Source of the DNA: Thermococcus indicus
GTDB lineage: Archaea > Methanobacteriota_B > Thermococci > Thermococcales > Thermococcaceae
Direction: 5' to 3'
Assembly (NCBI RefSeq): GCF_006274605.1
Contig: NZ_CP040846.1
Span: forward strand, 1,185,041 to 1,249,040
DNA length: 64,000 nt
A program made the position numbers and the translations under genes. Shown here piece by piece: positions 7,447 through 29,760 of the stretch. Under the pieces are notes generated by a model. The model made no database searches and was not told the origin of the DNA. It saw nothing but the letters and a program-made list of their open reading frames with translations. Within the stretch, counting starts at the first letter, position 1; every line of letters starts with the position of its first letter.

Positions 7447-7548
7447 TGTTACCACCTACTCTCTTTGGACTTGACACTATTTGAATTTAATTATCCCACC
7501 AGCCGAAACTTCTTTTAAGTGATGCAGACATCACATAGTGGGGATAGC

Positions 7549-10500
7549 ATGATGAAACTTCCGGAACTGAAACCAAATGAGATTGCCCGCTTTTTTGAGC
7601 TTTACGAGTGCCCTCAATACATAAAACTCCTTTATGAGAAAAAGAGTGGCAAACTTGACAACTATTACTGTGTATTGGGTATCAAAAGTCGCGTGGACGA
7701 TGTTCTCGTTAGTTGGGGTGCCAAATTTGAAGAGATTCTCCTCGAGGAGTTACAGGCATTGTTTTCCAATTCAGAGTTTTACGGCCTCTTTAAGAAAACA
7801 AAAACCGAAAAATCTCCTAGTCGAGTATTCTTCGAAAGGAATTATCCCGACACCTGTGTTTACATTGACTCGGAAAAGGATTGTGTAGAAAAAAGCAAGA
7901 GCTATTAAGAAATCTATCCCGGGAAGTCCCAACCATAATCTATCAACCCTGTCTAAAAGGAACCATTGGAGCATTTCCCGTCGTGGGAAGGGCAGACTTC
8001 ATTGTGGCGGTTCCAGAAAACGAACGTTTCACCTTTTACGTTTTGGAGGCCAAATTCACAAAAGAGGAGAAGCTTTTCCATAGATTCCAAGCGATAATTT
8101 ACGCTTATCTCCTGAATCAGGTTTTAGACGGCCTCAAAATCGATGGAGAAATAAAGTTGGCGGTTGTAACCAAGGGAGCCCCACTAACTGAGTGGCCACC
8201 GACGGGAACCCTGAGCTTTCCCCAGGAGGTAGAGGAGTACATTTTAACCCTAGAGAACAAGCTGGGAGAAGACGGCCCGTTTTATGCCATGTTGAACTCA
8301 GAAAAAGCCGACCTCTGGCTTACAATGAGGTGCGCTGAGTGTCCATTCGAACCCGTCTGCATAGCTAAAGCCGTTGAGAGAAGAGACTTGGGGCTTCTTG
8401 GAATTCAGCCGGGCTATCAAAAAGTTTTCAGAGAGGCGGGAGTCAAAACCATTAATGACCTTGCCGATCTCTACGAGTTTCCCGTTGATAAGAAGGGTCG
8501 TTCATGGCCCACTAATTTCAAACGTCCCATAACCAAAAAACCTGAGGTAGTTGCCCACATAGTTGGAAAGACTGAACTCAGCAATCTTCCTAAGCTTTCT
8601 AAGATGGCTCAGGTAATAAAAAAGGAGATTGAGAGAAAAACAAATGACGTCAGACCCGAATTTATCCCCGGAACTGGCTACAGCTTGCCTGTAGAGAATG
8701 GATATTTTTACCCAGAGAACTCGCTTGTCAGGGTTTATCTCTTTGTTCAGCACAATCCGATACACGACACTCTGATTGGAATATCCGGCGTTGTGGAGAA
8801 CTCCGATTCCAAGCGGATAAGAGTCTTGGCCGAAGTCGCTGATGAAATTCCAGAGGGAGAAGAAGAGGCCCTCAAAATGGAGAGGAACCTCCTAGTGAAA
8901 TTTTTCACAGAAGTCCTCTATGCCATCATAGATGTTGCGCCAAACTTAGAGGGACAATATTATCGTGACCCTTACGCGAGAAACAAGAAGGGGGAACCCG
9001 CTTTCATGGTGGGTTCACGTGACGATGTGTTTCTCCACCTGTACTTTTACAGTAGATTTCACAGAGACAAGCTAATGGAGGCAGTGAAACGTCATAGGGA
9101 AGTCTACGGTATGAATGCCATCCGCTCATTTCTGAGTCTCCGGAAGGCGATTGACCAAGAAGGATATTCAATTATCAAGGATGAACTGATAAAGCGTCAT
9201 GCCCTTAGGTTCCCTCCGGGACTGGGGATAATTCCTGTGGTTCACCAATTTCAGCTTAACTGGGGGGAGGCTCCAGAAGAGTACCAGGGCAATGCACCCA
9301 GTTGTTCACATGGGGGTTGGTTTAGATGGAATGGGTTAGAAGAAAAGTTTGAGGACCTTTTCAGGTTCCTCGTTGAGAAGGATGAAAATGGCCGGTTGAT
9401 ACTGTTTAAGGAAGATAACTCGTGTCCCCTGTACAACATAGGAAAACACTCATTTGGGGGATATGGAAGGATTCCACCCCTTTATCCTATCTTCCATAGG
9501 GAAGACGAGCAAGTGCCGCTTTACGTGATATGGAATGCATTTACCAAGAACAAACAGGAGGAGCTGAAACATCTACTCAAGTACTTAGCGCTTGCCGTTA
9601 GGCATATTGAGCGTTCAATACCTGAAAGCACAAAGGACAGGTTTGTTAAAAAAACTCCGTTTAGCCTCCAGGACCTCGTCGATTTTAACATAGAGAATGT
9701 CAGTCTGGCGGAGGTTCTTGAAGAATACCAGAAACTCGAGTACAGCAAAAGGAAAGAGGAACTCCAAACTCACCACCGGCTTCCTCTCTCAGTTCGCGTG
9801 TTGAGTGGACGTAGCATAGTGATTAAGATCTCTAAGGTGGAAAAAGATAAGGGCAGGAAGATAAAAATAATCGGGCATGTAGTCCTTCCGCCAACCGACG
9901 ATGAAGGTATCTGGAGGGATTATGCCTCATCAGAAGCCCCGTTGTTTAGTTTAGATGAATCCTCATGGGTTGTCATTACCCCCATCAAAAACGAATGTAA
10001 AAAAGAAGGGGGCATGTGTCTCAGGCTCGTAATAACAGACAAGAAAGATCCAGCTTTTGAAATATCAAGATCCCCTCTTGCGGTGATCAATAGGTTTGAT
10101 AGAAAAACAGGGGAGGTTGAACTTTCCTTCCTTCCCCTTCGTCAGCATGGGCCGTTTTTGTTAAGCCACTCCTTCCCGAAAAATGACTATTCCGGAATTC
10201 AGATTAATGGTGAAACGATTTCAGGTGGGAGTTATTTAGCCATCGACCCCGCTATGGATGATCTTAACATGAACCGGGCCTACACGGTTCTCGAAGAAAT
10301 CCTCAAGGGTTCACGTCATCATTATCTCTACAAAAAACTGCAGGACATCTATTCATCAGAGAGGTTTACCCATGGGGACATTAAGAAATACCGGATACAT
10401 CTGTGGGAGAGAGAACACATTGAAGAGTTCGTGAATCTCCTCGAAAATGTTGGCAAAGTAAGCGATGGGGTCCATGCTCCAAACTCCAGCCAGAAGGGTT

Positions 10501-12017
10501 TTATTCTTGACATTGACCACTTCTTGGTGAGTCTCCAGGGGCCGCCTGGGACAGGCAAGACTTCGGGGGCTGTTGCGCCCGCGATACTGGCTAGGGCGTA
10601 TTCTTCAATAAAGCAGAAAAAGAACTCGGTTTTCATCGTCACTGGAGTTTCTCACAGAGCCATTGATGAAGCACTTATTAGAACCGCCAAATTGCGTTTA
10701 GCTCTTAGATCCCATGCCAAAGAGCTTGGAAATATTGAGCTCATTAGGGTGGCCAGTAGTGGAGATGCTCTCCCTCAAATAGAAAATAACTTAAGGGCAG
10801 AGAACTTCATGCCCGAGGAGTACAATGTCGCTCTAACGTACGCTGAAGGAAATAAGATTCGAGAATTGCTTTCCTCCACTCGGCTTGATGGGTGGTTGTC
10901 TCAAACAGGTCGTGTAAAGGTTATCTTCGCAACCCCCGGAACGATTTTCAAGCTATTCAAGGATTTGACTAAGTTCCCACCAATGGCTGAGCTTGTGGTT
11001 ATTGACGAAGCTAGTATGATGGACCTTCCAATGTTCATAATGGCAACTATGGGTGCTAAAGATAGTTCACAGGTTCTTATTGTAGGTGACCACAGGCAAA
11101 TGCAGCCGATCCAGACTCATAACTGGGAGGTTGAGGACAGAAAGACAATTGAGGAACACGTTCCATTTCTATCAGCAATAAACTTCTTGAGGTTCTTGCG
11201 TGGGGAGCTTGATCCAGAGGAGCACAAGGAGTTCGAAAAGCTCCTTTATCGGAATCCTCCCCTGTGGGAGAGCAAAGAAGTAATGGAGAATTTACTTCCC
11301 ATTCACCGGTTAAGAGAGACCCATCGTTTACCTCAGATTGCTGCGGAGATGCATTCTGAGCTTATCTACAGCAAGGACGGGATTGAGTTGGTAAGTAAGA
11401 AGAGAGGAGATAAGAAAAGACAATTGATGCAAGTTGTGACTAATCTTAAAGTTCCAGAGTGGGTAAGGTGGATTCTTCATCCTGAGTACCCCTATGTCAT
11501 TATTGAGCACAATGATACTTCTTCCACAAAGGTCAATGAACTCGAGGCAAAAATAGTCTCTGAAATAGTTAAAGCCATTCCAAGGGGGTTGGATGTTGGT
11601 GTAGTCGTCCCATATCGGGCTCATAAGGCGTTAATTTACAGGAAATTTAGGGATTTGGGTAGGGAAGTGTTAGTTGATACCATCGAGAGGTTTCAGGGCG
11701 GTGAGAAGGATGTCATCATAATATCCATGGCATCGAGTGACCCCACTTATTTAGCAACGGTTTTCGATTTTATTTATGACCAGAATCGGTTTAACGTGGC
11801 CGCCAGTAGGATGAGGGAGAAGCTGATATTGATTGCATCGAAGAGTCTCTTCACGGCGTCAGCCTTTGACTTGGAGCAGTTTGAGAAGGTCAAGGTTTGG
11901 AAACGGTTTTATTTACGGGTTAAGAAATCCGGGGAAACAAGTCCAATGTTGGATTTCAGAGCAATTGAAGATATCCCTATACGAGTCAGCTTATATAGGC
12001 TAAGAGAGTGGAAATAA
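7549..12017 (+). CDS. Cas4/RecB-like Fe-S nuclease fused to UPF1/Dna2-like SF1 helicase, interrupted by a -1 frameshift
   Basis: Two overlapping frames form one protein of about 1,489 aa if one base is added to the A-run at 7889-7894; the first frame otherwise stops at 7908. In order it shows an N-terminal cysteine (YECPQYIK), a PD-(D/E)xK nuclease core (GRADFI at about 147, LEAKF at about 164), and an iron-sulfur cysteine triplet CAECPFEPVC near 262-271. After a long middle region comes the SF1 helicase: GPPGTGKTSG (about 996), VIDEASMM, GDHRQMQPI, RLRETHRLP, TIERFQGGEKD and NVAASRMR. The architecture resembles Dna2 and single-protein nuclease-helicases of defence islands. It probably unwinds and degrades DNA. 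It converges with the glycosylase operon. Confidence 0.8.
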
Positions 12018-12067: not shown

Positions 12068-13363
12068 TTATGGTGGCATTATATAATACTGGCAATAACC
12101 CTTTAGTGGGCAGTTGTTGCACTTTGGTGTGCTTGTACATATTCCTTTTTCGATACCAAGGTCGTTGTTTCCACCTTCTTGACAGAATGCCACGAATACC
12201 ATGTCAACCACTCTTATCCAAATATCAAGCCTTCTGGCGATTTCACTGCAAATTTTGATGGTTTTATCTACGTTTTCTTCCGTAGGTTCCGGAGACTCAA
12301 GCCATCCCAAACGGTAGAAGAGCCGCAGGATCGTTGTGTCGGGTTTCATAACTTCAAATCCTAACTCCATTAGGTAGTGGTATGCCGTTACCTTTCCAAT
12401 TCCCTTGAATCTTCTAATGAGTGCGGGTCGTATCTTCTTCTTAATGCCCTCATAGTCGTAGAAGCTTACGCCAAACGAATCCAAGTAGTTGGCGAATGAT
12501 CCATATTTCTGAATTATTTTCTCAAACTCTCTTGCGTTGTGGATGCACGCTTCTATCTTTCTCCTGTTCCTAATCATGTTCTTGTCACTTAGCATTCTTT
12601 TTATGTCTTCTTCTCCATACCTCGCCACCTTTTTGAAGTCACTAAGGTATTTAAGTATGGTTGGCATTTTTTCTTCCACAATTCTGGCTTTCATGCCAGC
12701 GAAGAAGATAACCTGGACAAGGATAGAATACATTTCTTCATCAGTCAGTTCCTTGTATCTTCCAGCGTACTTGTTGAGCTTCTCTAAGTAGGCTTCAAAT
12801 TTTTTCTTGTCCCTGCTCTCCTCTTTTAGCTTCTTAAGAACCTCTTGAAAAACCCTAACATGCTCCTCGGGGTCGTGTTCAACGCTTACCGCTTGATCCA
12901 CCCCTGTTTGTACTGGTAAATTCAAAGAGTACCACAGGTTTCCATACTCTTTTAGGACGTCAAGCTGGTGGATTATCGTGCTGTCTTTCAGTGGAACAAT
13001 TACGAGACCGATATCATACCTCTGCAGGACCTCTCTGGCAACTCTTCTCAGTTCATTAATTTGGTCCCCTGCTCTGTAAAGTTCAACATCACTGTCCAAC
13101 GGCTTCTTAAACACCTCTTCGGCCAGCTTTCTGAGCTTCCTATCTTTAACAACATGCACACCAATCATTATCAGAGCATCTTCAAGCATTCCCTCGATAG
13201 TGGGAATCCAAGTTATTGATGTCTTTCCAAGCTCTGGATAGAGAGGTTTCAGCTCCCAAGCTGGGCGGTTGTTCTCATAGAGCAGTAGAATGTAACCGGG
13301 GTTTGGGAGGCCATAGGTAATGTAAGGCCGACTTCCCACGATAATAAAAGCCGTGACACCCAT
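12068..13363 (-). CDS. HhH-GPD DNA glycosylase with Fe-S loop and unknown N-terminal domain
   Basis: The product is 431 aa; GGGGTGG precedes the ATG. The first ~200 residues are unrecognised. Residues ~200-431 look like a Tag/EndoIII-type glycosylase: IRNRRKIEACIHNA, a helix-hairpin-helix FKGIGKVTAYHYL, and the GPD aspartate in KPDTTILRLFYRLG. The C-terminal cluster C-x5-C-x2-C-x5-C (from CTSTPKC) fits a 4Fe-4S loop. The EndoIII catalytic lysine position holds Val (GKVTA against GRKTA), so a monofunctional base excision activity is inferred. It is the third gene of an apparent minus-strand operon after ADP-ribosylglycohydrolase and a TPR protein. Its substrate is unknown. Confidence 0.72.
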   Translation of the reverse strand: MGVTAFIIVGSRPYITYGLPNPGYILLLYENNRPAWELKPLYPELGKTSITWIPTIEGMLEDALIMIGVHVVKDRKLRKLAEEVFKKPLDSDVELYRAGDQINELRRVAREVLQRYDIGLVIVPLKDSTIIHQLDVLKEYGNLWYSLNLPVQTGVDQAVSVEHDPEEHVRVFQEVLKKLKEESRDKKKFEAYLEKLNKYAGRYKELTDEEMYSILVQVIFFAGMKARIVEEKMPTILKYLSDFKKVARYGEEDIKRMLSDKNMIRNRRKIEACIHNAREFEKIIQKYGSFANYLDSFGVSFYDYEGIKKKIRPALIRRFKGIGKVTAYHYLMELGFEVMKPDTTILRLFYRLGWLESPEPTEENVDKTIKICSEIARRLDIWIRVVDMVFVAFCQEGGNNDLGIEKGICTSTPKCNNCPLKGYCQYYIMPP

Positions 13364-13403
13364 TTAGAGCCACCCCGATGGTTAAGTAACAATTTTCTAC
13401 CTT

Positions 13404-15053
13404 TTACTCTTTTTGAATACCCCTCTTCTCGCCCCTTTGAGACTCCTGCAACTTCGACACATTTTCCTTGTCACTTATTTTTGCAACGTCTTGAAGTAGT
13501 TTTGTACACTCAGCTATCTCGCTGGATAGTACGCGCTCCTCCCTATTTAGTATTGAGAGCAGAGTATCGGTTAGCGGCCACTTGTCACGGTCAATTTGCT
13601 CGAGTATCTTCTTGGCCTCTTCGGCACTTAAATTCCCACTAACCAAGTCAAGCGCAACCTTCATTGTGTAGATATCTGTGTTGGTGTTTCCGGTCATTTT
13701 TATTATCCTCTCAATGGCTTCATCGTAAAGTGAAACGTCACCAAAATCGTGTTTCGTAGAGTAATGGATGCATATTGATTTTACCATGCAATCGACTGCC
13801 TCTTTCTTCATCCCCAAATCTGCATAAGTTAAAGCCAAATTGTGCAGGACGAGACCCCTTTCATCTGGCGTTCTTGCGTATTCCAATGCTTTTTTGAGCA
13901 CTGGCAAGGCTTTTTCGGGACGATTAGTTTCATAATAATGTGTCCCAAGATTGTTCAGCGTTATTGAGTGGTATTCCGGAACAACACCGAGCTCTATGGC
14001 TTTCTTCTCAAGCTCGACAGCTAGCTGTAAGTACCTCTCAGCTTCCTCAGGACAGTCCTGCTGTGGGAAGTAGATTAAAGAGACTGAAGTGGCAACTCTG
14101 GCAGCCTTAATGTAATACTCAGCCGCCAGCTTTTCTGGCGTTGTTCCTTTAATTGAGCTAAAAATCTCGTCCAAAAGCTTGGTTATCCCATCATCACCAC
14201 TGTTGTCCCTGTGCTTTTCCAGTTGATAATCAGCAATGCTAATGAGTAACTTTATGTAGCCATCGGCATAAATGAGCTTTTCTCGTTGCCAGACTTCCTC
14301 GTACGCTTTCTCGAGGTCCTTTAAAGAGTATTCGGAAAATCCTTTTGCAAGGAACTCCTTAACCGTTATCCCCTCAGGTCTCACGAGCTCCTGGAGGTCT
14401 TTATAACGTCTTTTGTCCACGTAATCGGATTTTACCCACTTTTCGAGTGCCCTACACCGCTCTGGGGCATCTTTCCCCCGTTTGTTATCAATCTCCTGAC
14501 GGAGTGCTTCATACCTGATTTCTCTGAGGTACTCCCCCATGTCCAAGCTTTGGGAAAGAAAACCGGGAGAAAGGGATAACAGTTCCCTCACCCATTCATT
14601 TGGTGGATTGAGTATGTCATGGCAGATTTTTTCTGCCAGTTTGCATGGTAGTTCTAGGACATTCCAGTATGAGGGTTTTCCATCCTTCCTAATAACTTGC
14701 TCTGATTTTGCCAAGTATTTTCCATCAACTGTTTTTTCAATTTTCCATCCGGTAATCTCGTTCAGAGTTTGCTCGATGGGACACCAAGCTATTGATTTAA
14801 CGACTTTCTCTTCTTTGTCACTTTCAGCAAGGAACATGCAGTAAAGAAAGGCCTTTATTTCCTCTAAAGACACGCCCTCTGTATATCCTACGAAATTTTG
14901 AAGGTAATAAACAACCGTGGCGAGCATGGGGAGCCTCCTCATGGAAGCGAAATTCCCCCAGTCTTCGCATTCTTTAGATGTCCTGAGTTTTCTGAGGAGT
15001 TCCTCGATGGTGTCTTTCCTCTTTTCATAGAGCCTCATGAGCTGGGATTCCAT
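13404..15053 (-). CDS. TPR-repeat protein of unknown function
   Basis: The product is 549 aa started at MESQLMRLYEKRK, whose ATG follows GGAGGACTCGGC; a further upstream start exists. The N-terminal half is helical and unrecognised. The C-terminal half carries tetratricopeptide-like repeats, for example HSITLNNLGTHYYETNRPEK and RGLVLHNLALTYADLGMK. No signal peptide or catalytic motif was seen. It overlaps the 3' end of the ADP-ribosylglycohydrolase gene by 29 bp, so the two are probably translationally coupled, and it runs 40 bp before the glycosylase gene. A scaffolding or sensing role is inferred from architecture only. Confidence 0.7.
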   Translation of the reverse strand: MESQLMRLYEKRKDTIEELLRKLRTSKECEDWGNFASMRRLPMLATVVYYLQNFVGYTEGVSLEEIKAFLYCMFLAESDKEEKVVKSIAWCPIEQTLNEITGWKIEKTVDGKYLAKSEQVIRKDGKPSYWNVLELPCKLAEKICHDILNPPNEWVRELLSLSPGFLSQSLDMGEYLREIRYEALRQEIDNKRGKDAPERCRALEKWVKSDYVDKRRYKDLQELVRPEGITVKEFLAKGFSEYSLKDLEKAYEEVWQREKLIYADGYIKLLISIADYQLEKHRDNSGDDGITKLLDEIFSSIKGTTPEKLAAEYYIKAARVATSVSLIYFPQQDCPEEAERYLQLAVELEKKAIELGVVPEYHSITLNNLGTHYYETNRPEKALPVLKKALEYARTPDERGLVLHNLALTYADLGMKKEAVDCMVKSICIHYSTKHDFGDVSLYDEAIERIIKMTGNTNTDIYTMKVALDLVSGNLSAEEAKKILEQIDRDKWPLTDTLLSILNREERVLSSEIAECTKLLQDVAKISDKENVSKLQESQRGEKRGIQKE

Positions 15054-16008
15054 GCCGAGTCCTCCTTTGTCCTCCTGGGAGAAGGCTATCAACGAATTCG
15101 TCGATTATTTTCCTCACATATTCCCCGGCCTCAATCTTCTCAAGCCACTCTTTGGGAATGCTGTCGATTCCATAATACGTCCCAGCCAAGCCGCCAGTAA
15201 CGGCTCCGGTAGTGTCAGCGTCCTCTCCAAGAGAGACTACCTCCTTTACTGCATCGGCAAAGCCCTCATTTCTTAGAAACGCCCAGAGACTCGCCTCAAG
15301 AGTGTGGACAACGTAACCACTGCCCCTAATCTCGCTCCGCTCTACTTTGTGAATTCTCCCGCTCAAGACTCTATCGTAGTGGGTGAGCTCCTTGGCAAAC
15401 GGCTCTATTGAGTAGAACTTTTCCGCTGTTGCTATTGCCTCGTGGTAAGCTCCCGGCTTGTCCATTCCATCAAGAATGTTCCATATGATTAACGAATAGA
15501 TGCCACAACCAATGAGTGAGCGGGGATGAGCGTGGGTAATCATTGAGACCTCGTGAATGAGCTTGAGCTTCTCCTCCAGCGGGCTGAGTTTGAAGTAGGC
15601 ATAATAAGCGGCTGGCAGGATTCTCATTAATGAACCATTGCCATTGTCCCACTCTCCACTACCACCAGCTTCGAGAGGTGGAACACCACTGGCAATGCGC
15701 TCTATTGCCATTGAGGTTGTGTTGCCCTGGTCGAAGGGATATCCCCTCGGCGTGAATTCGCCGTCATAATACCAACGGAGGAAGTTTTCTGCAATCTTCT
15801 CGACGCTGTAGCCTTTTGTCAGTGCGTGGGCGGTTGCCAAGGTTAAGGAGGAGTCATCGCTCCACAAGCCGTCAAGCATTGGAATTTCCTCGGGTCTTGG
15901 ATAATCCAGCTCCATCGCAAGTCTGCTGGTGAACTGAAATGTCAATCCAAAGGCATCTCCAACAAGAACCCCCCAGAGGCCGCCTTCAAGCCTTGACCGA
16001 AGTTCCAT
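15025..16008 (-). CDS. ADP-ribosylglycohydrolase (ARH/DraG family)
   Basis: The product is 327 aa. Family metal-site motifs are clear: GDAFG near the N terminus, WSDDSSLT (usually WTDDT), NGNGSLMRILP, and the C-terminal GEDADTTGAVTGGLAG, whose acidic residues bind the two magnesium ions. The family removes ADP-ribose from proteins or nucleic acids. It leads a minus-strand operon with a TPR protein and a DNA glycosylase, which suggests reversal of an ADP-ribosyl modification of nucleic acid or a partner, but no ADP-ribosyltransferase is visible nearby. Transcription probably starts in the palindrome-rich region 16009-16200. Confidence 0.85.
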   Translation of the reverse strand: MELRSRLEGGLWGVLVGDAFGLTFQFTSRLAMELDYPRPEEIPMLDGLWSDDSSLTLATAHALTKGYSVEKIAENFLRWYYDGEFTPRGYPFDQGNTTSMAIERIASGVPPLEAGGSGEWDNGNGSLMRILPAAYYAYFKLSPLEEKLKLIHEVSMITHAHPRSLIGCGIYSLIIWNILDGMDKPGAYHEAIATAEKFYSIEPFAKELTHYDRVLSGRIHKVERSEIRGSGYVVHTLEASLWAFLRNEGFADAVKEVVSLGEDADTTGAVTGGLAGTYYGIDSIPKEWLEKIEAGEYVRKIIDEFVDSLLPGGQRRTRHGIPAHEAL

Positions 16009-16668: not shown

Positions 16669-16908
16669 ATGAGTGAAGTTATTAACCCTAACGTGCTTCT
16701 CCAAAAGACAGACCAGAAGGAGAAGAAATTAGAAAAACTCAGGCTTGAGGTTCTAAAAATGAGAGCTGAAAGCCTCTCCGTTGAGGAAGTAGACGAAGAA
16801 ACCATTAAAGACCTCAAAAAGAGGTTTGAGGAGTATAAGAGCGGGAAAGCGGAAGTAGTTAGCGGAGACAAAGCAGTTAGGATACTCTCGGAGATTTTGG
16901 AGGATTAA
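16669..16908 (+). CDS. Small antitoxin-like protein facing a RelE toxin
   Basis: The product is 79 aa, highly charged and predicted mostly helical (KTDQKEKKLEKLRLEVLK, DEETIKDLKKRFEEY), in the manner of RelB-type antitoxins, although no family motif is decisive. The ATG at 16669 follows GGTGGGAGA, with a TATA-like TATTTAACC about 35 bases upstream. Its 3' end overlaps the 3' end of the RelE-like gene by 32 bp on the opposite strand, which is unusual since antitoxin and toxin normally share an operon. Function is inferred from size, charge and context only. Confidence 0.65.
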   Translation: MSEVINPNVLLQKTDQKEKKLEKLRLEVLKMRAESLSVEEVDEETIKDLKKRFEEYKSGKAEVVSGDKAVRILSEILED

Positions 16909-17176
16909 CGCTTATAGGCCCTTCTCTCGGCCCTATTTTAGCCAAATAAATAACCTTATCCTCCCAATCAACCCCGTAAAAAACCCTATATCCCCCAAGC
17001 CGTAAGACATAGGCCGGAAAGCCCTTAACCTTCATGCTCTTAACTCTTCCCACGTCGTAACCCCTGGGAACAGGAGAATCAGGATCTACCCTTAAAGCCT
17101 CGATGGATTCAACCAATTTCTTAATGTGTGCTGGTTCCTTAGTGTCTACCTTAATAAATTGGGCGGGAGGGGACAT
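16877..17176 (-). CDS. RelE/ParE-superfamily toxin-like protein
   Basis: The product is 99 aa. The C-terminal half carries the RelE fold signature seen in archaeal RelE: YVLRLGGYRVFYGVDW followed by EDKVIYLAKIGPREG. RelE toxins cleave mRNA in the ribosomal A site. The N-terminal region (HIKKLVESIEALR) fits the helical hairpin of the family. No strong ribosome binding site precedes the ATG, and the CTTTTTA just upstream may indicate a leaderless or weak transcript. Two 25-bp direct repeats (17233-17301) lie upstream. It converges with the antitoxin-like gene. Confidence 0.72.
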   Translation of the reverse strand: MSPPAQFIKVDTKEPAHIKKLVESIEALRVDPDSPVPRGYDVGRVKSMKVKGFPAYVLRLGGYRVFYGVDWEDKVIYLAKIGPREGPISVNPPKSPRVS

Positions 17177-17484: not shown

Positions 17485-17630
17485 CACGTGAGAAGTTAAG
17501 CGTTCACATTATGTGAGCACACAAAATTATTTTCAAAAAATAAACACACGAGATGTGCACACACGTGGGTTCGCGCTGACTCTTGGAGAATGAGAACGTG
17601 TATTCGTTATAGTAGAACCTCTGCAAACCA

Positions 17631-17710
17631 TTGCAAACCTATGCAGACCTGTGCAAACTTCTGCAAAAACCTCTGCAAACCACCGCCAACTCCTGCAGGC
17701 CTATGCAAAA
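17631..17710 (+). repeat. Degenerate 10-bp tandem repeat array (TGCAAACC type)
   Basis: About eight units resembling NTGCAAACCN follow each other at 10-bp steps, with one 2-bp slip after the fifth unit. Examples start near 17631, 17641, 17651, 17661 and 17672. The period equals one helical turn, so all units face the same side of the duplex, as in iterons or cooperative operators. It is not a multiple of three, which argues against a coding origin. Confidence 0.65.
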
Positions 17711-18123: not shown

Positions 18124-18138
18124 CCCGTTTCCCCCAGC

Positions 18139-18521
18139 TATGCTATACAATTCTGTTCTACGGAAACTGAGCGTGGAAGTTAGTGAGAAATTTATGGCTA
18201 TGCTGGTTACGTTTCCACACAATCCTGTTCTACGGAAACGGAAATCTGGGTGTGGAAGTTTGAGATACAGGGCTACGAGGTGTTTCCACACAACTCTGTT
18301 CTACGGAAACTTACGTTTTCCTCTACAAAGGGATTTCCTCAGGCAGGAGAACGTTTCCACACAACTCTGTTCTACGGAAACGAGGGGTATAAGAGGAGGG
18401 ATTATCGGTGAAGTCCATCAATGTTTCCACACAACTCTGTTCTACGGAAACGTGAAAGACATGCCGAGAACTTCATACGCCATTAGGTTCGAGTTTCCAC
18501 ACAATCCTGTTCTACGGAAAC
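18139..18521 (-). CRISPR. CRISPR array 1: six 29-bp repeats, five spacers
   Basis: Repeats lie at 18139-18167 (5' half degenerate), 18211-18239, 18282-18310, 18353-18381, 18423-18451 and 18493-18521. On the plus strand they begin GTTTCCACACAA and end TTCTACGGAAAC, with T/C variation at two central positions. Spacers are 41-43 bp. The degenerate repeat at the left end marks the trailer, and a TATA-like box lies right of the array, so it is transcribed on the minus strand. Repeats are related to, but shorter than, those of array 2 (GTTCTACGG replaces GTGACTACTG). Confidence 0.95.
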
Positions 18522-18580
18522 TCTGGGTGTTATTGCCGTGTTTCTCATGTATCCCTCTCTCTTTGATTCTATTTAAGACT
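18522..18580 (-). promoter_or_regulatory. Leader/promoter of CRISPR array 1
   Basis: On the minus strand CTTAAATA (complement of 18570-18577) sits 48 bp before the first repeat, matching the arrangement at array 2 where the same octamer sits 50 bp away. A second TATA-like stretch, TTATAAAT, occurs near 18609-18616. Confidence 0.6.
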
Positions 18581-26897: not shown

Positions 26898-29684
26898 CTG
26901 AACACACAATTCTGTAGCTACTGAAACGGCTAAGATCAGGGCCTACATCACTGCCAGGAACTCCTTTCCACACAATTCTGTGACTACTGAAACGACGGAT
27001 AGTAGTCTATGATTACAGTAACTACTGTGACTTTCCACACAATTCTGTGACTACTGAAACGTTTGATGCCTGCTCAGCCATATCCAATATTTGTGAACTT
27101 TCCACACAATTCTGTGACTACTGAAACATATGATGGAGGTCATGGCTATTGAACTGAGGAAGATCTTTCCACACAATTCTGTGACTACTGAAACCTGAAA
27201 AATGAGGACGACTGAGCTCGCCTGGAAACTTTTTCCACACAATTCTGTGACTACTGAAACTCCGCGACGCCTCGACCGGAGAAGTCCTGAATGGGGTTTT
27301 CCACACAATTCTGTGACTACTGAAACTTAACAGAGAATGATAAGGCCGTTATCCATAGAGTTCGTTTTCCACACAATTCTGTGACTACTGAAACACGAGG
27401 ATAGTCATTGACCCTGAGACTGGCAAGATAATGTGTTTTCCACACAATTCTGTGACTACTGAAACCTTACTCTGTGTTAGGACTCCCACGAGCGAGATTA
27501 GTTTTCCACACAATTCTGTGACTACTGAAACAAAGGGGGCCTCGTCATTGACGTGACATTCGACGATGTTTTCCACACAATTCTGTGACTACTGAAACGC
27601 TTGTTGAATCTCTTTGAGCCAGTAGCGAGGTAGTTCGTTTTCCACACAATTCTGTGACTACTGAAACTTGAGCGGGTAAAGCGGGTTGAGGTCGTTACCG
27701 AGCCAGGTTTTCCACACAATTCTGTGACTACTGAAACGGTTTTCGTTCTTTATCTTGGGTTTTGGTTTGATTTGGTTTTCCACACAATTCTGTGACTACT
27801 GAAACTGAGTTTTACGGTGCGTAGTCAGAGGTATGTGTCTAGGTTTTCCACACAATTCTGTGACTACTGAAACAACGAGGATACAGGTTCCACTCACATG
27901 CAGATTTTACGTTTTCCACACAATTCTGTGACTACTGAAACGTTTGATGATGAAATCTATGAGCTTGAAGAGGAGGTGTTTTCCACACAATTCTGTGACT
28001 ACTGAAACTTCCGCACACCATAGAGAACCCGACCCCTGCCCAGAGTTTTCCACACAATTCTGTGACTACTGAAACCTTCACGGAGAGAAAGGGCTGGTAC
28101 ATCGTTTCGTTCTTTTCCACACAATTCTGTGACTACTGAAACTTATATGCGGGCCTTGGCGTGGCGTCGGTCTCTCCTATCTTTTCCACACAATTCTGTG
28201 ACTACTGAAACGTCGGTGGCAAGTCCTTTAGAGGTGTGCGCCTCGAAGTTTTCCACACAATTCTGTGACTACTGAAACTGTTTGCACGGTATATGAATTT
28301 GCAGGAATGATTGAGTTTTCCACACAATTCTGTGACTACTGAAACTGAAGACCCTTAAGAGTGTTCTTTCAAGGATTAAGAGTTTTCCACACAATTCTGT
28401 GACTACTGAAACGCTTACCTTTGGGACGTTGTTCCTACCACCCCACTTGTTTTCCACACAATTCTGTGACTACTGAAACCCGTATGTAGCTGTCCTGCGC
28501 CGACTGCACGAAGTTCGTTTTCCACACAATTCTGTGACTACTGAAACTATAAAAACGGACAACTAGTAAGCACTACACAACTTGCTTTCCACACAATTCT
28601 GTGACTACTGAAACGACCACTCCCACGAACCCATAACAAAAGTTACAGCATCTTTCCACACAATTCTGTGACTACTGAAACAAGGTGTTAAATGCCCTTT
28701 TAACGCCCTTTATCTCTTCTTTCCACACAATTCTGTGACTACTGAAACATCTGCAACTCCCTCCTTGAGCTCGACTTTTGTGAACTTTCCACACAATTCT
28801 GTGACTACTGAAACGCGGGTTCTCTGGGGCAGTCGTAGCGGCGGCATTTTCCTTTCCACACAATTCTGTGACTACTGAAACCCGGCTGGCGAGCACATAC
28901 TGCACGCACTCATAGCCACTTTCCACACAATTCTGTGACTACTGAAACCACTTGAGAGGGACGTTCTAAGGGTCGAGCTCTGGACTTTCCACACAATTCT
29001 GTGACTACTGAAACATGACCCTCTTGTGATTATCTGGTTTTATTCTCATGACTTTCCACACAATTCTGTGACTACTGAAACCGCCCCTCTCATAAGCCTC
29101 AATCCTAACTTCCACCACCTTTCCACACAATTCTGTGACTACTGAAACTGAAATCGAGGCCAAAAAGTGGGAGTGGTGGTAATAACCTTTCCACACAATT
29201 CTGTGACTACTGAAACCCCTCGCCCGTCGCCTCCGGACCGCGAGGGAGGCTATCTTTCCACACAATTCTGTGACTACTGAAACTCGAGATAACACAAAAA
29301 GCAATTCAGAAGCTCTTCGCTTTCCACACAATTCTGTGACTACTGAAACTTTTGTGAGCTTTACTAACACTGCCATCGACGTCATCTTTCCACACAATTC
29401 TGTGACTACTGAAACTTAACTGCCCCAACTCTGCGAGGAGGGCCTCCGTGTCCCTTTCCACACAATTCTGTGACTACTGAAACTCACCGGCACGGCCCTA
29501 AGCTTGCCGGCTTCTATCGCCTTTCCACACAATTCTGTGACTACTGAAACCTGTTGGTGATTGTAGGTTTGTTGGTGTGGTTCATGCTTTCCACACAATT
29601 CTGTGACTACTGAAACTATTGTGTTCGATGTTGTATTAACTCGCATTGTAGAGGCTTTCCACACAATTCTGTGACTACTGAAAC
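26898..29684 (-). CRISPR. CRISPR array 2: 42 repeats of 30-31 bp, 41 spacers
   Basis: Repeats read on the plus strand as CTTTCCACACAATTCTG followed by TGACTACTGAAAC; starts run from 26898 (degenerate, trailer end) through 26964, 27031 and so on to 29655. Spacers are mostly 35-41 bp. The degenerate repeat at the left and the TATA box at the right give minus-strand transcription; crRNAs would carry a handle ending GTGTGGAAAG, like the Pyrococcus handle ending GAAAG. Repeats 6-25 (27231-28547) start TTTTCC instead of CTTTCC, nearly always with an extra G before them. Confidence 0.97.
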
Positions 29685-29760
29685 AGGCGGGAATTTTGCC
29701 CTGTTTTACCCATTGGCTTTCTACGCTCTCCAGATATTTAAGGGTTTCTGGAAGCCTCAA
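29685..29760 (-). promoter_or_regulatory. Leader/promoter of CRISPR array 2
   Basis: On the minus strand CTTAAATA (complement of 29735-29742) lies 50 bp before the first repeat. Transcription would start about 25 bp inside this leader. The same octamer at nearly the same distance precedes array 1. Confidence 0.65.

Follow-up and report, generated by a model that had tools for sequence, protein, structure and literature searches.

A recurrent, mosaic operon of an ADP-ribosylglycohydrolase, a TPR protein and an F2N-HhH-GPD glycosylase fusion in defence-like islands of Thermococci

Three adjacent minus-strand genes of Thermococcus indicus encode, in operon order, an ADP-ribosylglycohydrolase (ARH), a TPR protein and a predicted iron-sulfur (Fe-S) glycosylase, in which a domain that we call F2N is fused to an HhH-GPD domain. 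They lie in a stretch of 64,000 nucleotides (contig NZ_CP040846.1, 1,185,041-1,249,040; hereafter the window) of the 2.23 Mb genome. The genes recur in other Thermococci in mosaic loci, where two types of glycosylase exclude each other and the neighbouring gene families are defence-like, in agreement with the setting first suggested for them. We tentatively read the operon as an accessory module that moves horizontally and belongs to a type IV-like, i.e., modification-dependent, antiviral island; it would act by base excision with the ARH as demodifying enzyme. We rate this reading just short of an even chance. The original prediction, a possible nucleic-acid modification or defence system, is confirmed as an observation and partly supported as an interpretation.

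All three genes are intact. The ARH gene (15025..16008, 327 amino acids (aa)) overlaps the TPR gene (13404..15053, 549 aa) by 29 bp, and 40 bp separate the latter from the glycosylase gene (12068..13363, 431 aa), so that the overlapping or nearly touching arrangement described before holds. Purine-rich, ribosome-site-like sequence precedes the TPR start as well as the glycosylase start. The ATG giving 549 aa was taken as the TPR start; an alternative TTG at 15092 is unlikely because the TPR relatives begin at ATG. An AT-rich island, as previously claimed, fits the glycosylase and TPR genes with G+C contents of 0.43 and 0.44, whereas the ARH gene at 0.51, against 0.52 for the whole window, is itself not AT-rich. 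The ratio of non-synonymous to synonymous substitution rates (dN/dS), taken from pairs with unsaturated synonymous sites, was ~0.07-0.09 for the ARH, 0.11-0.20 for the TPR protein and 0.10 for the HhH domain. These low values mark all three as working genes; the operon is genuine and under purifying selection throughout.

To follow the genes beyond T. indicus, 115 Thermococci genomes were surveyed and loci were mapped in 15 other genomes (16 stretches), with neighbours possibly hidden at the short-contig loci of G031, G084 and G102. The ARH is present in 13 of the 115 genomes, one copy residing on plasmid pTBMP1. At 11 of these 13 loci a TPR-family gene is found, mostly adjacent to the ARH (2.8 kb away in G095 and ~5 kb in G088; G035 has the N-terminal domain of the TPR protein only), and F2 genes, meaning F2N and/or HhH, are found at seven. 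Failure of the genes to co-occur in other genomes had been set beforehand as a refutation, and they do co-occur. Further recurrent parts of the mosaic are McrB, McrC or DUF2357, an RNase J-like metallo-hydrolase, a class II glutamine amidotransferase (GATase), a gamma-glutamylcyclotransferase (GGCT), a DUF7662 protein, a DUF6884/DpdC-like protein and a second ARH. McrC, or DUF2357 together with McrB, lies within or beside the ARH cluster in seven genomes, placing relatives of McrBC type IV restriction in the same island in several genomes.

A glycosylase accompanies the ARH at eight of the 13 loci. It is TAG-like in three genomes (T. indicus, i.e., G000, G033 and G047) and AGOG-like in five (G045, G063, G065, G088 and G095), and no locus carries both types. 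In G045 the AGOG-like gene lies 15 bp upstream of the ARH. The AGOG-like gene at these loci is a second copy, scoring ~85-103 bits compared to ~255-288 bits for the housekeeping AGOG; all five genomes have both, and the divergent copies retain the Lys and the Asp. Among 94 Thermococcaceae, divergent AGOG (eight genomes) and ARH (13) occur jointly in six (hypergeometric P ~5e-5, uncorrected for relatedness), one of which, G032, has the two genes on separate contigs. We read the alternation of TAG-like and AGOG-like enzymes as non-orthologous replacement, and no other evidence speaks as strongly for the importance of base excision in the module. The pairing of a base-excision enzyme with an ARH, from which the original prediction had started, is thus recurrent in Thermococci. 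As a separate observation, a 280-aa family without a Pfam match (F7) adjoins or lies near the AGOG-like glycosylase and adjoins the HhH gene in G033 (loci L054, L056, L057, L058, L059 and L052). It is usually accompanied by a DUF6884/DpdC-like gene and may be a partner of the glycosylase.

The glycosylase of the window had been described as an Fe-S HhH-GPD enzyme and compared with EndoIII. The HhH-GPD fold, the Fe-S loop and the catalytic Asp stand; the best match is TAG-like rather than EndoIII-like. In Pfam, the 431-aa protein matches the methyladenine glycosylase family best (Adenine_glyco, a moderate 6e-16), and the model of the fusion (pLDDT 90) retrieved TAG as top Foldseek match (2.5e-5). 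Its HhH part (12068..12886), which shares its fold with TAG, EndoIII and MutY, compared to TAG with a VIA Z of 14.7 (root mean square deviation 3.5, 150 aligned) and to EndoIII and OGG with ~12; by this model comparison the fold is HhH and not that of uracil-DNA glycosylases. The PADLOC 'OGG' model also matched (5e-12), which by its score only was considered as a possible link to CBASS-type OGG genes. The enzyme differs from TAG and EndoIII in combining a TAG-like sequence confined to residues ~206-298 with a C-terminal Fe-S loop and an EndoIII-type Asp while having no Lys. The NCBIfam tag model scored 41.2 bits, below its cut-off of 232.5, and for the Glu/Trp of the TAG pocket the phmmer alignment starts past the Glu, the expected positions looking replaced (by eye only). 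V325 occupies the position of the EndoIII catalytic Lys, as had been noted, and Val is found likewise in both relatives having the HhH domain; the catalytic Asp is retained as D342. Because Val replaces Lys and the Asp is kept, the predicted glycosylase probably lacks apurinic/apyrimidinic (AP) lyase activity. The Fe-S cysteines follow the pattern C409-x5-C415-x2-C418-x5-C424, the first spacing being one short of the x6 in EndoIII.

Relatives of the 431-aa protein at high similarity occur in nine of the 115 genomes, or 13 when weak HhH-only matches from another family are included. The F2N-HhH fusion itself is found in two genomes, T. indicus and G047 (a full-length relative, 58%), and in G033, whose locus matches the PYG1 island, HhH is a separate, frameshift-split gene without F2N. 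A scan of genome contigs using the entire 431-aa protein gave no match, the peptide patterns probably being too specific.

F2N comprises residues 1-152 of the fusion (12908..13363), which makes the N-terminal domain ~150 residues long and not ~200 as first given. No Pfam or NCBIfam model matches it, and by its sequence it is a separate family, new here. Structure searches using the full-length model were dominated by the HhH domain; a profile match to a designed Rossmann 2x2 protein (8e-5) was taken as similarity of fold type at most. F2N stands alone in six other Thermococcales genomes and adjoins TPR or McrB genes in G102 and G084 too. A profile search across 84,980 species returned 27 loci, of which 23 are bacterial, mostly Bacillaceae. 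At 12 bacterial loci F2N lies directly downstream of a double-GGCT-type gene (gap mostly 1-39 bp), and at 10 there is B2, a TPR protein that bears a DNA-binding domain of the Trans_reg_C family. The same arrangement was seen in a sample of 397 genomes from the bacterial order concerned: of the 11 with F2N, 10 have the GGCT gene immediately before it and nine have the TPR gene adjacent. Within 10 kb of bacterial F2N we found ZorA, BREX BrxC and BrxP, GmrSD, McrB-like genes, a type I methyltransferase and PbeA, and of the neighbours, which were picked by hand, roughly half matched known defence genes in a scan that was not blind. A viral or plasmid origin of F2N was rejected, as no relative was found in viral contigs and no F2N of the bacterial type on plasmids. 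The bacterial GGCT-F2N operon has an additional member (L089 4310-5830, L084 7616-9001, L094 8422-9858), a peptidase of M42/M20-like type that carries an additional domain at its N-terminus and hints at gamma-glutamyl peptide chemistry.

The deepest conserved partners of F2N are the GGCT and TPR-winged-helix genes, not the ARH or the glycosylase. Such a pattern, common to Bacilli and Thermococcales and found beside unrelated defence systems, could also be that of a regulatory 'hub', in which F2N would act together with the winged-helix/TPR protein and GGCT to detect a small metabolite and to regulate the adjoining defence system, with glycosylase and ARH as passengers. The DNA-binding domain of the bacterial B2 would suit this explanation. 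A passenger role is difficult to reconcile with the direct F2N-HhH fusion in two genomes and the strong purifying selection on HhH, and we consider the hub distinctly unlikely.

The TPR protein matches TPR_12 (2e-13), and in its model (pLDDT 84) the TPR fold starts at ~residue 206. Upstream of the repeats the model shows first helices and then a hairpin, as in a winged-helix domain. From this order the N-terminal domain, F1N (14604..15053), may be a winged-helix domain; among Pfam winged-helix families its only match was insignificant (E 0.23). F1N also exists as a separate gene of 143-162 aa beside McrB-type genes in other islands. In G037, G058 and G097 it has the metallo-hydrolase on one side, accompanied by GGCT or not, and McrB-type genes on the other, and a shorter match has a similar setting in G114. 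Altogether, the TPR protein or F1N alone is found in 16 of the 115 genomes.

The ARH is a member of the ADP-ribosylglycohydrolase family and a predicted hydrolase. It matches PF03747 across the entire profile with 233.7 bits, the curated cut-off being 26.2 (E 4.5e-69), and the motifs of the binuclear metal site, SDD (50-52) and EDxDT (262-266), are intact. S50-D51-D52, E262, D263, D265 and T266 are invariant among 12 relatives, and the same segments align with solved ARHs. The nearest solved structure is Lmo0067 (8za7, 233 bits); other close ones are of the Tri1/DraG kind, i.e., protein-type hydrolases. DraG and Tri1 act on protein substrates. Another ARH, more divergent and extended at its N-terminus, adjoins the first in G047, G065 and G088 and lies nearby in G063 (L057 8315-10472, L055 8622-10765, L058 3111-5220, L056 5336-10082).

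A response to ADP-ribosylated DNA, as originally proposed, is not borne out. Different from DarTG systems, the DarT transferase (PF14487) is absent from all 115 Thermococci genomes including that of T. indicus, and no ADP-ribosyltransferase was noticed in the ARH loci, where DarT was searched for and other families of these transferases were not. The closest solved ARHs are those named above, and in six of six sampled bacterial plasmid ARH neighbourhoods no glycosylase was found, by which a general coupling of ARH and glycosylase was rejected as well.

The lack of a coupled DarT and the kinship with Lmo0067 and protein-type ARHs would suit a repair system centred on the ARH, which reverses viral or toxin ADP-ribosylation of host proteins or RNA, with the winged-helix/TPR protein as regulator or chaperone and nucleases or glycosylases as add-on effectors. 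ARG-centred host systems of this type have been predicted to act against viral ADP-ribosylation (PMC9503650). The loci studied here resemble them in having an ARH with no coupled DarT, a possible HTH regulator and nuclease/helicase neighbours, and the second ARH in the clusters of G047, G063, G065 and G088 is consistent with repair, too. On the other hand, the phosphatase, the Nudix/WYL regulator and the named chaperone family of those systems were not noticed in the Thermococcales clusters, F2N-GGCT-TPR is found in bacterial genomes without this ARH, and the repeated, mutually exclusive base-excision enzymes as well as GGCT/GATase are left unexplained. Repair centred on the ARH appears unlikely to us.

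For the preferred antiviral module, the following course of events is conceivable. The glycosylase would excise an unusual base in invading DNA and thereby create abasic sites. F2N and the winged-helix/TPR protein would provide a sensing, docking or regulatory part, which elsewhere is plugged onto McrBC or other effectors. The ARH would strip ADP-ribose or a similar glycosidic adduct off virus-hit host proteins or the decorated target, so that the other parts can act. Antiviral function, excised base, order of steps and the substrate of every enzyme are what we infer here.

A precedent for demodification followed by excision is Brig3 with BapA, where BapA removes glucose before the base is excised (PMC13160076), and brig1 and its N. 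zhouii homologue adjoin a predicted ARH (PMC11078745). At Brig loci as in the operon, an ARH gene lies close to a base-excision enzyme in defence-like surroundings, the role of the ARH being putative at Brig loci as well. Brig enzymes belong to the uracil-DNA-glycosylase superfamily and have no described F2N or TPR partner, while the enzyme of the window is HhH/TAG-like with an Fe-S loop. In a wider proposal, which we regard as possible but on the doubtful side, F2N would be an unrecognised, widespread component of defence islands in at least archaea and Bacillota, serving as interchangeable sensor jointly with a winged-helix/TPR protein and an enzyme of GGCT type; its connection in Thermococcales to base-excision enzymes and an ARH, either fused or adjacent, would amount to an HhH-based form of base-excision restriction, distinct from the uracil-DNA-glycosylase fold of Brig. 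If true, antiviral base excision would be present in archaea as well and involve a further glycosylase fold, the proximity of ARH and defence glycosylases, seen both at Brig loci and in Thermococcales, would be a testable pairing instead of a repeated coincidence, and F2N would become a new marker for locating defence islands.

Part of the gene set was known before. According to a study of 2016 (PMC5126054), PYG1 of P. yayanosii is an integrase-mobile island, whose 'module III', in common with pTBMP1 of Thermococcus barophilus, consists of TPR, a small open reading frame (ORF), ARH, GGCT, GATase and a hypothetical protein; the study assigns the module no molecular function. PYG1 and pTBMP1 carry the ARH and TPR genes of the operon in unchanged order, accompanied by GGCT, GATase II and F4. 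The G033 locus agrees with PYG1 in coordinates and gene sizes, and the methyladenine-glycosylase-like PYCH_15190 matches the HhH domain. The window differs by the fusion of HhH to F2N and by a cluster without GGCT, GATase, McrBC or integrase. 'Undescribed', the word used originally, therefore does not apply to the ARH-TPR-GGCT part; no name for the full gene set or for F2N was found in the literature, most subscription journals lying outside its coverage, and new are the F2N family and its bacterial defence-gene company.

Several observations weigh against an antiviral module. Its antiviral role is predicted from gene context. At five of the 13 ARH loci the DNA examined carries no glycosylase gene, and neither do the six plasmid neighbourhoods. 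McrBC is absent from the cluster of the window, the sole McrC match of the genome being located at C1:1633025, ~0.4 Mb away. The bacterial neighbours of F2N were hand-picked for the non-blind defence scan, and this ARH is absent from G115 and G116, the two bacterial genomes with F2N operons that were searched. Protection against T4(5hmC) by the Brig3/BapA fragment did not require its ARH ORF (PMC13160076). Deletion of PYG1 lowered growth at 100 °C and raised it at 80 MPa, and a virus challenge of the deletion was not found described in the portion of PMC5126054 considered.

This growth phenotype, together with the response of module III genes to temperature and pressure (PMC5126054), fits an island for environmental stress or DNA repair, where heat or oxidation damage is repaired, damaged adducts are recycled and the defence context is incidental; TAG-like and AGOG-like enzymes do belong to repair families. 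However, the distribution is patchy, the locations include a plasmid and an integrase-driven island, and the divergent AGOG copies coexist with a housekeeping AGOG. We hold a stress or repair island to be improbable, the least probable of the explanations considered.

The neighbours named originally, a nuclease-helicase, a toxin and CRISPR, are all present. The PD-(D/E)XK nuclease-SF1 helicase, identified by domain matches (7519..12017, plus strand), is convergent to the operon and at most a candidate member of the module. It consists of two overlapping ORFs because an A-run near 7890 differs by a single base, a frameshift that may reflect decay, sequencing error or slippage; the relatives in G070 (84% DNA identity) and G037 are uninterrupted proteins of ~1490 aa. 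Relatives occur in 18 genomes. Among mapped regions only that of G037 lies near a related McrBC island (L095), in which the ARH is absent, and the nuclease-helicase was rejected as a fixed partner. CRISPR was likewise rejected as a partner of the module, since the other ARH loci show no common CRISPR gene family.

On the other side of the operon, an antitoxin-like gene (plus strand) and a ParE-like toxin gene (minus strand) at 16669-17176 are convergent with overlapping 3' ends, whereas toxin-antitoxin genes usually follow each other on the same strand. Several tandem copies of a ~10-bp motif (e.g., AACCTCTGCA and AACCTATGCA) at 17606-17709, in the stretch that separates the toxin gene from the CRISPR array, have an iteron-like look. 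A block of Cmr-type genes lies between two CRISPR arrays, at 18136-18522 (six units) and 26899-29700 (~40 units), whose repeats are related but distinct.

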